Assembly (NCBI GenBank): GCA_013335405.1
Contig: JAAXVR010000019.1
Coordinates: 1-55,635 of the forward strand
DNA: 55,635 bases
Source of the DNA: Chlorobiaceae bacterium
GTDB lineage: Bacteria; Bacteroidota; Chlorobiia; Chlorobiales; Chlorobiaceae
Direction of reading: 5' to 3'
The notes under the pieces are model-generated. The model did no database searches and was not told the DNA's origin. It saw nothing but the letters and a program-made list of their open reading frames with translations. The number at the start of each line of letters is the position of its first letter. Position 1 is the first letter of the stretch. The translations under genes were made by a program, and so were the position numbers. Below, one piece after another: positions 6,776 through 14,222 of the stretch.

Positions 6776-7777
6776 ATGAAAACTCATGACTTACTGAACA
6801 AGACAAGATCGGGCGAATCGCTTTCGCGCGACGAACTGCTTGTTCTGCTTGATCTTCCGCCGGATTCTTCCGATACCTATATGGTCATGGCTGAGGCAAA
6901 CCGTATTTCGAAGGAGGTATCGGACGGAAACGCTGAAGTTCATGCTCAGTTTGCCGTCAATCTTGCGCCGTGCAGTTGCGATTGCCTGTTTTGTTCGTTT
7001 GCTGAAGTCAACGGGGTATTCACTGCCTCGACGGTGTTGAGTCCGGGTCAGGCTGTTGCTTATGCGCGCCAGTTTGAAACGGACGGCGCGAACGCTCTTT
7101 TTCTGATGTCGACGGCGCACTATCCGTTTGAGCGTTTTCTGGAAACAGCAAAGGAGGTGCGCAAAAACCTGAAGCCGGAAACAACCTTGATTGCCAATGT
7201 CGGCGACCAGTCACTCAGGAGTGCAATCAAGCTCAAAGATGCCGGGTTCACCGGTGTGTATCATGCGCTTCGGCTTCGCGAAGGAATCGATACCTCCCTT
7301 GATGTGGGCAAGAGGAAGCGGAGTATTCTCAACTTCAGGGAGGCCGGTCTGGAAGTTGGAACATGCGTGGAACCTGTTGGTCCTGAACATACCAATGCGG
7401 AACTTGCCGATATGATCGCATTTACCGCATCGTTCAATCCTGCTTTTAGCGGCGCGGCGCGCAGGATTCCCATACCGGGCACCAGATTAGCCGCACGAGG
7501 GATCATCAGCGAGCTGCGGATGGCACAGATCGTTGCCGTTACCAGACTGGGTATGCCGAGGAGTGTTTCCGGCAATTGCACCCATGAACCCTGCACGTTG
7601 GGCGCTATCGCAGGCGCTAATCTCTTCTGGGCCGAAGTGGGAGCCAATCCCCGCGACGTTCAGGCGAAGACTGAGGAGGGAAGAGGTGAAAGCGTGACCA
7701 GTTGCCGCACTATTTTTCAGGAAAGTAATTGGGCGGTGCCTGATGGACCCTCACGGTTTTATAATCGCTTTCCGTGA
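6776..7777 (+). CDS. Radical SAM protein, biotin synthase-like (possible BciD relative)
   Basis: A 333-residue radical SAM enzyme. The [4Fe-4S] motif CxxxCxxC is C66, C70 and C73 (PCSCDCLFCSF), with an additional C68. The layout is that of BioB/HydE-type proteins: a complete TIM-barrel core with GTCVEPVGPEHT and PIPGTRLAARG segments, and a C-terminal part with NCTHEPCTLGAIAGANLFWAE and two further cysteines. In green sulfur bacteria one protein of this kind, BciD, oxidises the C-7 methyl group to formyl in bacteriochlorophyll e synthesis. The context (chlorophyll organism) allows that role, but no carotenoid or chlorophyll gene is next to it, so BciD is only a hypothesis. It is not BioB itself by sequence impression. 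Confidence 0.75.
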   Translation: MKTHDLLNKTRSGESLSRDELLVLLDLPPDSSDTYMVMAEANRISKEVSDGNAEVHAQFAVNLAPCSCDCLFCSFAEVNGVFTASTVLSPGQAVAYARQFETDGANALFLMSTAHYPFERFLETAKEVRKNLKPETTLIANVGDQSLRSAIKLKDAGFTGVYHALRLREGIDTSLDVGKRKRSILNFREAGLEVGTCVEPVGPEHTNAELADMIAFTASFNPAFSGAARRIPIPGTRLAARGIISELRMAQIVAVTRLGMPRSVSGNCTHEPCTLGAIAGANLFWAEVGANPRDVQAKTEEGRGESVTSCRTIFQESNWAVPDGPSRFYNRFP

Positions 7778-8008
7778 TCAGATAACTGAAAATATTCCGC
7801 TCTCTCTCTGCAGGTCGGGTGACGTTGACCTGTATATGAAATAACCCTTGAGGATATGCCTGTAAGCGCTTATTAACGCCTTTTATCAAGGTCGTCAATG
7901 CTCCAGTGAGAGAAAGCATGCGAAATTATCCGCCAGGAATTCATCAAGAGCATCATCCGGATTTTTTCCGGGAGGACAGCAGACGCGATGAAGGATCATA
8001 AAAGCCTG

Positions 8009-8030
8009 AACTCCTTAAAGCAGGAGTTTT
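8009..8030 (+). terminator. Short hairpin, possible weak terminator
   Basis: AACTCCT and AGGAGTT form a 7-bp stem with a six-base loop followed by only a few T residues. It lies about 230 bp after the radical SAM gene and 36 bp before the next start codon, so it could also act in the leader of the following gene. Confidence 0.3.
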
Positions 8031-8065
8031 CCTGACGATTCCCGGAAATCAGACCCGAATAACAG

Positions 8066-8623
8066 ATGAAGCTTCGGTTGCTTGTTGGCCTGACGGCACT
8101 TATCGCCCCGTTCCTGCATTCACTGTCGGATTTTATAGAACTTTATCAGGGGGGATTCTCGACCGGTCAGCTCTGGCTCAACTACCTCGCCTTTCTTCCC
8201 ATGCCCTGGCTTTTGCTTGGGATATCTATGCTGCACGAAGAGCCCGGCCCGGGGTGGACCGCTCTTGCCGGCGCACTTCTGTACGGCGTTGCATTCACCT
8301 ATTTCAGTCACACGACACTCCTGGCTCTCGAGCAGCATGTGACAACATACGAAGCACTCTGGGGGTTACTCGGAAGCACCTACACGGTGCACGGAGCTCT
8401 CATGGTCTGTGGCGGCCTGATGTTCGGTATTTCAGCACTTCGAGCGGGATGTCTTCCAAAGGTCTCACTGCTGCTTTTCCTCTTCGGCCTAAGCTTGAAT
8501 TTTGTCCTTGCTCTTCTTCCGGTCCCTGATATTTATCAGACGGCGGGCAGCACCCTGCGCAACATCGGGCTCATGGCAATGGGCTATGCGGTTCTTTCCA
8601 GACACCTCCGCTACCCGAACTAA
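8066..8623 (+). CDS. Conserved-type integral membrane protein, unknown function
   Basis: A 185-residue protein made of about six hydrophobic helices (around residues 5-20, 32-55, 65-85, 95-120, 128-152, 160-178) with short loops. The first helix resembles an uncleaved signal anchor. I do not recognise a family motif. Histidines are placed in or near helices 1, 3 and 4 (H18, H79 region, H91, H109), which could suggest haem or metal binding, but this is only an impression. It has no obvious Shine-Dalgarno site, and its neighbours do not suggest a pathway. Confidence 0.65.
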   Translation: MKLRLLVGLTALIAPFLHSLSDFIELYQGGFSTGQLWLNYLAFLPMPWLLLGISMLHEEPGPGWTALAGALLYGVAFTYFSHTTLLALEQHVTTYEALWGLLGSTYTVHGALMVCGGLMFGISALRAGCLPKVSLLLFLFGLSLNFVLALLPVPDIYQTAGSTLRNIGLMAMGYAVLSRHLRYPN

Positions 8624-13361: not shown

Positions 13362-14222
13362 ATGGCCAGTACAAAAATAGTCGGGCTTCTTCACCTTTTC
13401 CGTTTCGAACTTTCGTTCGCTGCCGGAGCCTGCGTGCTGCTTGCCGAACTCCTCGCCCTGGGTGGTTTTCCTTCTCCCGTTCAGGCGGTATGCGGCTTCC
13501 TGAGTTTTTTCTGTATTTCAGCAACGGCGCTGATCCTCAATGACTGTTTCGATATCGAGACCGATCGGATCAATGCCCCTTCCCGCCCATTGCCAGCAGG
13601 ACTTGTCACGAAAACCGAAGCGCTTGTCCTTTCGGCTTTTGTCACGCTTTCCGGTTTCCTCTTTGCCGGCATGATCGGCGTGGAAGCATTCATAGTTGTC
13701 TTCATCGTCTGGCTCGCCGGGTTTCTGTACAACTGGCGGCTCAAGAAATCCGGATTCATCGGCAATCTCCTTGTCGGCTTTTCAGTCGGCATGACCTTTA
13801 TTTTCGGGGGAATTGCCGTTGGAAAGCCTTTCGAAGAGGTCGTCTGGTTCCTTGCTGTCATGACCATGCTTGTCGACCTTGGTGAAGAAATCGCCGCGGA
13901 TGCTCTGGACGTCGATGGCGATCGTAAAACCGGCTCACGTTCACTGGCGGTCCTTTTCGGTCCACCTGCAGCAATGAGGGTTGCCGCAGGTGTTTTCGCA
14001 GCAGTCGTCGCCTGCAGCGCCGTTCCTTTCCTGTGCGGTTGGCTGGAGTGGTTTTATCTGCCTCCTGTACTCATGTTCGACGCTGTCATCGTCTATTCGG
14101 TCAACAACCTGCTGAATCCCCGGATTTCCGACCGGATCAGCGATATTCGCCGGATTTATCTCGGAGGTTCAGGGATGATCCTGGTATTTATCGTGATCAG
14201 GCTTGTGGTAAGACAAGGGTAG
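13362..14222 (+). CDS. UbiA-family prenyltransferase (DGGGP synthase-like)
   Basis: A 286-residue protein with about eight to nine membrane helices. The first aspartate-rich motif NDCFDIETDRINAPSRPLP (near residues 60-78) is the NDxxDxxxD prenyl-diphosphate/Mg site, and the second is DLGEEIAADALDVDGDRKTGSRSLA (near 172-196). The INAPSRPLPAG form is typical of geranylgeranylglycerol-phosphate/(S)-2,3-di-O-geranylgeranylglyceryl phosphate synthase-like and related UbiA enzymes rather than of chlorophyll synthase. It transfers a polyprenyl chain to an unknown acceptor in the membrane. A role in quinone, chlorophyll-tail or lipid synthesis is conceivable; neighbours give no hint. Confidence 0.85.
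   Translation: MASTKIVGLLHLFRFELSFAAGACVLLAELLALGGFPSPVQAVCGFLSFFCISATALILNDCFDIETDRINAPSRPLPAGLVTKTEALVLSAFVTLSGFLFAGMIGVEAFIVVFIVWLAGFLYNWRLKKSGFIGNLLVGFSVGMTFIFGGIAVGKPFEEVVWFLAVMTMLVDLGEEIAADALDVDGDRKTGSRSLAVLFGPPAAMRVAAGVFAAVVACSAVPFLCGWLEWFYLPPVLMFDAVIVYSVNNLLNPRISDRISDIRRIYLGGSGMILVFIVIRLVVRQG

Follow-up and report, generated by a model that had tools for sequence, protein, structure and literature searches.

The stretch analysed here (the window) is the whole contig JAAXVR010000019.1 of a Chlorobiaceae bacterium, 55,635 nucleotides long, which is contig C37 of that genome. On its forward strand lies an open reading frame encoding a radical SAM protein. The frame is a real gene, far beyond chance, and the following features were assigned to it:

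6776..7777, + strand: coding sequence of the radical SAM protein (333 amino acids, ATG start, stop included; from its relatives and the structure model)
6971..6994, + strand: CX3CX2C motif, residues 66-73 (C66, C70, C73; extra C68), from the 83-sequence alignment
7364..7390, + strand: family motif C197-V-E-P-V-G-P-E-H205 (C197, E199, P200, G202, E204 and H205 in 83/83)
7577..7591, + strand: family motif C268-T-H270-E271-P272 (H270, E271 and P272 in 83/83; C268 in 82/83)
7610..7657, + strand: family motif A279 to N291-P-R-D294 (A281 and E287 in 83/83; G289, N291, P292, R293 and D294 in 82/82)

The cluster motif of the window protein reads C66-S-C68-D-C70-L-F-C73, and its C-terminal pair of cysteines is C268 and C273. 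Four neighbours, taken from the open reading frames listed within 16 kb, were scanned with Pfam and NCBIfam: a nitroreductase, a protein without a family match, an FMN oxidoreductase and a UbiA prenyltransferase. By curated score none of the four is a pigment gene, in agreement with the first-pass annotation, which had remarked on the lack of such neighbours, and neither cruB nor a bchF-like gene is among them. The UbiA-family prenyltransferase (window positions 13362-14222) scores 311.1 against a cut-off of 269 for NF009523/PRK12884 and is distinct from the chlorophyll synthase models, where its scores are far under the cut-offs. The window gene stands alone with respect to the families discussed below: the window holds no TIGR04282, TIGR04283 or ArsS neighbour. 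Elsewhere in the same genome, ArsS and TIGR04283 genes lie side by side on contig C30.

One of the two readings offered at first was that the gene encodes BciD, the enzyme that forms the C7 formyl group of bacteriochlorophyll e, with the strain being brown. According to excerpts of Harada et al. 2013 (PMC3613366), bciD was identified by its presence in three brown strains, where it adjoins cruB and a bchF-like gene, and BciD identity within the group is >86%. We sought BciD in the green sulfur genus with the TIGR04043 model at an E limit of 1e-10. Six genomes gave a BciD-type match; in five (L133, L134, L135, L136 and L138) we read a protein of 401 amino acids with a CX8CX2C motif, the match in G085 being partial. 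The BciD-type gene has a BchF gene near it in L134, and in L135 the gene near it is BchU; both score over their cut-offs. The identification of the 401-residue protein as BciD is based on these BchF and BchU neighbours and on excerpts of PMC3613366, not on a deposited BciD sequence. A published bciD primer, used as a pattern across the genus, yielded a single match with 2 mismatches, in L120, which has no such gene at that place.

BLASTP of the window protein against the five BciD sequences returned pieces at chance level (best 16.5 bits, E 1.1), and the NF045502 variant_rSAM model, which gives BciD 330 bits, has no match in the window protein at E 0.1. Seven of the 65 genomes of the genus carry the window gene; six of the seven, the window genome included, are without a BciD match at the E limit of 1e-10, and both genes occur in G088 only. 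The window protein thus stands apart from BciD in alignment, belongs to a different family, and its gene mostly occurs where BciD has no match; both refuting tests named in the first-pass annotation went against BciD. We rejected BciD on these grounds; although the window gene is a radical SAM gene of a green sulfur bacterium and G088 carries both genes, that it should still encode this enzyme is scarcely conceivable. We also considered IsrB, the radical SAM protein of isethionate reductase, because the part of PMC11423573 available to us names BciD as its best Swiss-Prot match. IsrB was set aside, as the window protein misses the models that BciD matches, an indirect comparison made via the BciD models.

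The same search brought up genomes with 6 to 12 BciD-like radical SAM genes each: L137 (G081:C29:30000-49900), G073:C26, G076:C189 and G027:C66. Three BciD-like proteins read in L137 match NF045502 at 468-478 bits, and the L137 genes adjoin NifH-, NifD/E- and NifK/E-like proteins, all under curated cut-offs. The L137 region resembles a nitrogenase-like system in which the radical SAM partner has been multiplied.

A scan of the genome collection confirmed 308 relatives of the window protein, the best 80 of the 308 having 89-50% identity. These best 80 are mainly from Desulfobacterales and other deltaproteobacteria, Geobacter and Syntrophaceae; by record titles they also include Deferribacterota, Nitrospirota, Planctomycetota, Sumerlaeota, Auribacterota, Bacillota and others, and six are green sulfur bacterial loci. 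We aligned 83 sequences, namely the window protein, 80 sequences from 79 of the best 80 of 308 loci, G038 and one Subdoligranulum record; L073 was dropped (no open reading frame over its match), and L097 gave two sequences. Twelve residues, C66, C70, C73, H163, R166, C197, E199, H205, R230, H270, E271 and P272, are kept in 83/83. C66, C70 and C73 form the CX3CX2C motif that is the hallmark of the radical SAM superfamily. The remaining cysteines are conserved to different degrees: C268 in 82/83, C310 in 74/82, C273 in 62/83 and C68 in 38/83. Of the cysteines singled out in the first pass, C268 is nearly invariant, but C68 is no family feature, since it is a cysteine in only 38 sequences, and was rejected as a special ligand.

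The window protein scores 27.7 bits with Pfam PF04055 Radical_SAM, the gathering score being 29.5. An AlphaFold2 model of the protein, built from 46 sequences, has a mean pLDDT of 95.1 and a pTM of 0.93 and shows a complete BioB-type barrel. The best solved relative of the model is BioB 8vdw (Z 34.4, rmsd 2.1, 306 residues, 17% identity), followed by HydE 3ciw (Z 33.8, rmsd 2.5, 318 residues, 19% identity) and PylB 3t7v (Z 32.3, rmsd 2.8, 316 residues). Foldseek also ranks BioB and HydE first, and the two are tied as the nearest folds of the predicted structure. Among curated NCBIfam models the best match is BioB TIGR00433 at 52.4 bits against a cut-off of 225; HydE TIGR03956 gives 25.7 bits against 254.6 and PylB TIGR03910 22.7 bits against 348.2, while ArsS TIGR04167 has no match at E 0.1, BioB-type models being matched instead. 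By curated scores the window protein is none of these four. No curated NCBIfam model names the window family at its cut-off, and the window protein is a member of an unnamed radical SAM family with a BioB/HydE fold. The other reading in the first-pass annotation, a BioB-like member of the radical SAM superfamily that acts on a different target, is supported.

The ligands of the BioB [2Fe-2S] cluster were traced in an alignment with BioB, whose numbering was checked. F109, I139 and G195 of the window protein stand where BioB has C97, C128 and C188, and a cysteine at these three positions is found in 0/83 sequences. The fourth BioB ligand, R260, falls outside the aligned stretch, and H270 is a candidate counterpart by eye. 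The invariant C197 sits two residues past the C188 equivalent. The missing ligands argue against BioB's own route of sulfur insertion.

Within the green sulfur genus the distribution of the gene is patchy. The tree comprised 86 rows, the 83 sequences and three outgroup rows taken as BioB-type by eye, and was made by a quick method with SH-aLRT support only. A clade with support 100 unites the window with five Chlorobium-type rows and sits within a 22-row clade (support 97) that is mostly deltaproteobacterial; L065 (titled Chlorobiaceae) and G038 fall in other parts of the tree. The outgroup sits on long branches, and many forks are open. Further Chlorobium genomes gave weak matches (L008-L011, L013-L018) that have 24-29% identity and look BioB-like by eye. 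For the two genes flanking the window gene, tblastn (E 1e-5) found no match at 10 loci of other Chlorobiales carriers (7 genomes, judged by shared contigs), and a trmB-like gene lies near the window-family gene in three other carriers (by eye). The G+C content of the gene (53.8%) is near that of the window (52.7%), so base composition gives no hint of transfer. Because the Chlorobium sequences nest among deltaproteobacterial ones and only 7 of the 65 genomes carry the gene, the Chlorobium lineage most likely acquired it from a deltaproteobacterium-like source.

Neighbourhoods were examined at the best 80 of the 308 loci, with flanks of up to 8 kb and 994,266 bases in all. Genes were labelled by phmmer, the references being proteins of L064 and L052 together with an ArsS protein encoded by the window genome; those from L064 score over the curated cut-offs (240.9 against 182; 203.8 against 134). 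The families that recurred were TIGR04282 and TIGR04283, transferases labelled arsenosugar biosynthesis by NCBI. TIGR04283 is labelled in 19 of these 80 loci, TIGR04282 in 12, ArsS in 3 and any of the three in 22; none of the three was found within the flanks at the other 58. We scanned 30 of the 31 labelled transferases, leaving out one with undetermined letters. TIGR04283 matched 17 at E <= 1e-53 (near the cut-off) and 19 at E <= 1e-38, and TIGR04282 matched 15 at E <= 1e-38, some proteins holding both. Assuming two copies per 3.5 Mb, TIGR04283 would be expected in ~0.6 loci compared with the 19 observed among the best 80 of 308, an expectation that serves as a guide and not as a test because the linked families were chosen after viewing the neighbourhoods.

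In 11 of the best 80 of 308 loci (L031, L064, L069, L074, L077, L080, L083, L097, L099, L100 and L103) the window-family gene has a linked gene on its own strand, -27 to +49 bases away. The records of these 11 loci are named for at least six phyla, with close kin in two groups, L097 with L103 and L077 with L080 and L083. Both ArsS genes adjoining the window-family gene in L103 are over the cut-off (361.6 and 332.6 against 300). The arrangement of L097 (1294-4439) and L103 (1312-4448) is alike: two ArsS genes flank a periplasmic-binding-type protein (by eye), and the window family follows them directly. A further, distant copy of the family lies in L097 at 7292-8299. Among the other neighbours that recur are VTT-domain membrane proteins, an FAD oxidoreductase, DUF3047, fatty acid hydroxylase-type proteins and rhodanese-type proteins, the last labelled in 12 of the best 80 of 308 loci. 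Eight carriers in which a TIGR04282 or TIGR04283 gene adjoins the family were tested for ArsS, and seven of them show no match at E 1e-30 (L074 lies outside this set). In 48 carrier genomes picked from the 80 loci, ArsS is without a match at E 1e-30 in 34 and over the cut-off in 11; ArsS was accordingly rejected as a required partner.

A more distant member of the family (39% identity) is encoded on OY725850.1 (L023) beside two URO-D-type genes, a CobW-type gene and further genes, so that the wider family may serve several pathways. OY725850.1 is a circular record of 25,757 bases from Subdoligranulum variabile, filed as a plasmid and without annotation. L064 holds a weak MtaA/CmuA-type match of 46 bits against a cut-off of 244.

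Co-occurrence was counted in 298 genomes belonging to the class of G089 (titled Desulfobacteraceae and containing L028), with statistics uncorrected for kinship throughout. TIGR04283 is common in this sample anyway, with 203/298 genomes at E 1e-40 (188 over the cut-off); the window family is present in 75/298 (E 1e-60) and ArsS in 87/298 (E 1e-60; 84 over the cut-off). TIGR04283 occurs in 71/75 carriers of the window family compared with 132/223 non-carriers (p 6e-10, uncorrected for kinship), and in 24/25 when only closer relatives are counted (p 0.001, likewise uncorrected). Split by ArsS, TIGR04283 is found in 80/87 genomes with it and 123/211 without it. Within the TIGR04283-positive genomes, ArsS is present in 16/71 carriers and 64/132 others (p 3e-4, again not corrected for kinship). 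Over all 298 genomes avoidance of ArsS is not significant (17/75 carriers against 70/223, p 0.19), and in the closer relatives it is absent (10/25 against 77/273, p 0.25). NF008823 (PRK11873), which we take to be ArsM, shows no association with carriers in the 298 genomes (35/75 against 114/223). Several genomes of the G089 class have frames of ~1030-1070 codons with an ArsM-like domain under the cut-off, a few kb from TIGR04283 (for example G301:C1:1058304-1060444, G279:C7, G187:C1 and G196:C3).

In the green sulfur genus ArsS is over the cut-off in 5/6 tested carriers. A hydroxylase gene that lies near some Chlorobium copies of the window family is present in 7/7 carriers and 23/58 other genomes of the genus, and among 61 genomes of the genus ArsS is found in 27/28 with the hydroxylase gene and 14/33 without it. 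This fatty acid hydroxylase-type gene (G000:C31:14445-15233) was seen in 29 further genomes of the genus. It perhaps provides a missing lipid step of the same pathway.

In the radical SAM superfamily a [4Fe-4S] cluster on the motif cysteines cleaves SAM to give a 5'-deoxyadenosyl radical. By analogy, C66, C70 and C73 would hold such a cluster in the window protein and produce the same radical. From the family, the fold, the missing BioB ligands, the linkage and the co-occurrence we infer a catalysis, pathway role and substrate as follows. The family's own conserved residues (C197, C268, H163, R166, E199, H205, H270 and E271) would face the active site, and the substrate of the radical step would be a sugar or lipid-linked sugar on which the TIGR04282/TIGR04283 transferases act. 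The enzyme would do so beside ArsS in Chlorobium and without ArsS in most other carriers tested, where it may perhaps take the place of ArsS. We give this proposed radical step in the TIGR04282/TIGR04283 pathway a probability of roughly 45%. Arsenic in the substrate is unproven: the suggestion comes from the NCBI labels and ArsS alone, and the ArsM result gives it no support. A bolder version would make the BioB/HydE-type barrel a second, unrelated enzyme for the ArsS step, attaching 5'-deoxyadenosyl to arsenic, selenium or sulfur as the soft atom and feeding TIGR04282/TIGR04283 towards an organometalloid sugar or glycolipid, with ArsS replaced in strict anaerobes and supplemented in some green sulfur bacteria; we consider this version improbable.

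The family may instead serve another pathway or pathways, its link to TIGR04282/TIGR04283 being loose or bound to certain lineages, for instance with corrinoid/URO-D-type methyl transfer as its role in part of the carriers and an unrelated role in Chlorobium. Such a situation would account for the solitary window gene, for the 58 of the best 80 of 308 loci without linked genes, for the URO-D and CobW genes beside the OY725850.1 relative and for the weak MtaA/CmuA-type match in L064. It accords poorly with the same-strand adjacency in 11 of the best 80 of 308 loci, in records from at least six phyla, and with TIGR04283 in 71/75 carriers, and we hold it to be rather unlikely. BioB-like insertion of sulfur (or selenium), with a sugar or lipid instead of dethiobiotin as the acceptor, from a differently built sulfur source and with rhodaneses supplying the sulfur, draws on BioB being the best curated match and, tied with HydE, the best fold match, on the rhodanese-type proteins in 12 of the best 80 of 308 loci and on the invariant C197 close to the position of C188. 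As the three BioB cysteines are replaced in all 83 sequences, sulfur insertion of this kind is quite doubtful. A maturase role like that of HydE, in assembling part of a metal cofactor, is very unlikely; the fold is as near to HydE as to BioB (Z 33.8 against 34.4), but the curated HydE score is far under the cut-off (25.7 against 254.6 bits), and the labelled neighbours include no hydrogenase partner.

The analysis removes a false lead, BciD and a brown pigment, and replaces it by a radical SAM family that is patchy in green sulfur bacteria, widespread in other anaerobes and linked to a testable pathway. In the open-access literature, a scope outside which most subscription journals lie, we recognised no paper as being on the window family; excerpts from that literature do mention TIGR04283, TIGR04282 or 'selenodomain-associated'. 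If the pathway role proposed above is true, it would show how anaerobes without ArsS could make compounds for the TIGR04282/TIGR04283 transferases, and it would matter for how arsenic (or sulfur and selenium) is transformed in sediments and stratified lakes.

Compared with known systems, the window protein shares with BciD (PMC3613366) that both are radical SAM proteins of green sulfur bacteria, while BciD differs in its length (401 amino acids), its CX8CX2C motif and its NF045502 family. With BioB (TIGR00433; 8vdw, 1r30) it has the whole-length fold and CX3CX2C in common; it differs in having F109, I139 and G195 in place of the ligands C97, C128 and C188, and in the family's own motifs around C197 and C268. 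The whole-length fold is likewise shared with HydE (TIGR03956; 3ciw, 5few), at 19% identity and with a score far under the cut-off, and the fold is shared with the methylornithine synthase PylB (TIGR03910; 3t7v), whose curated score is also far under its cut-off. Finally, ArsS (TIGR04167) is a radical SAM protein that, like the window family, co-occurs with TIGR04283, and it adjoins the window family in L097 and L103; the window protein lies outside TIGR04167 and is nearer to the BioB-type models.
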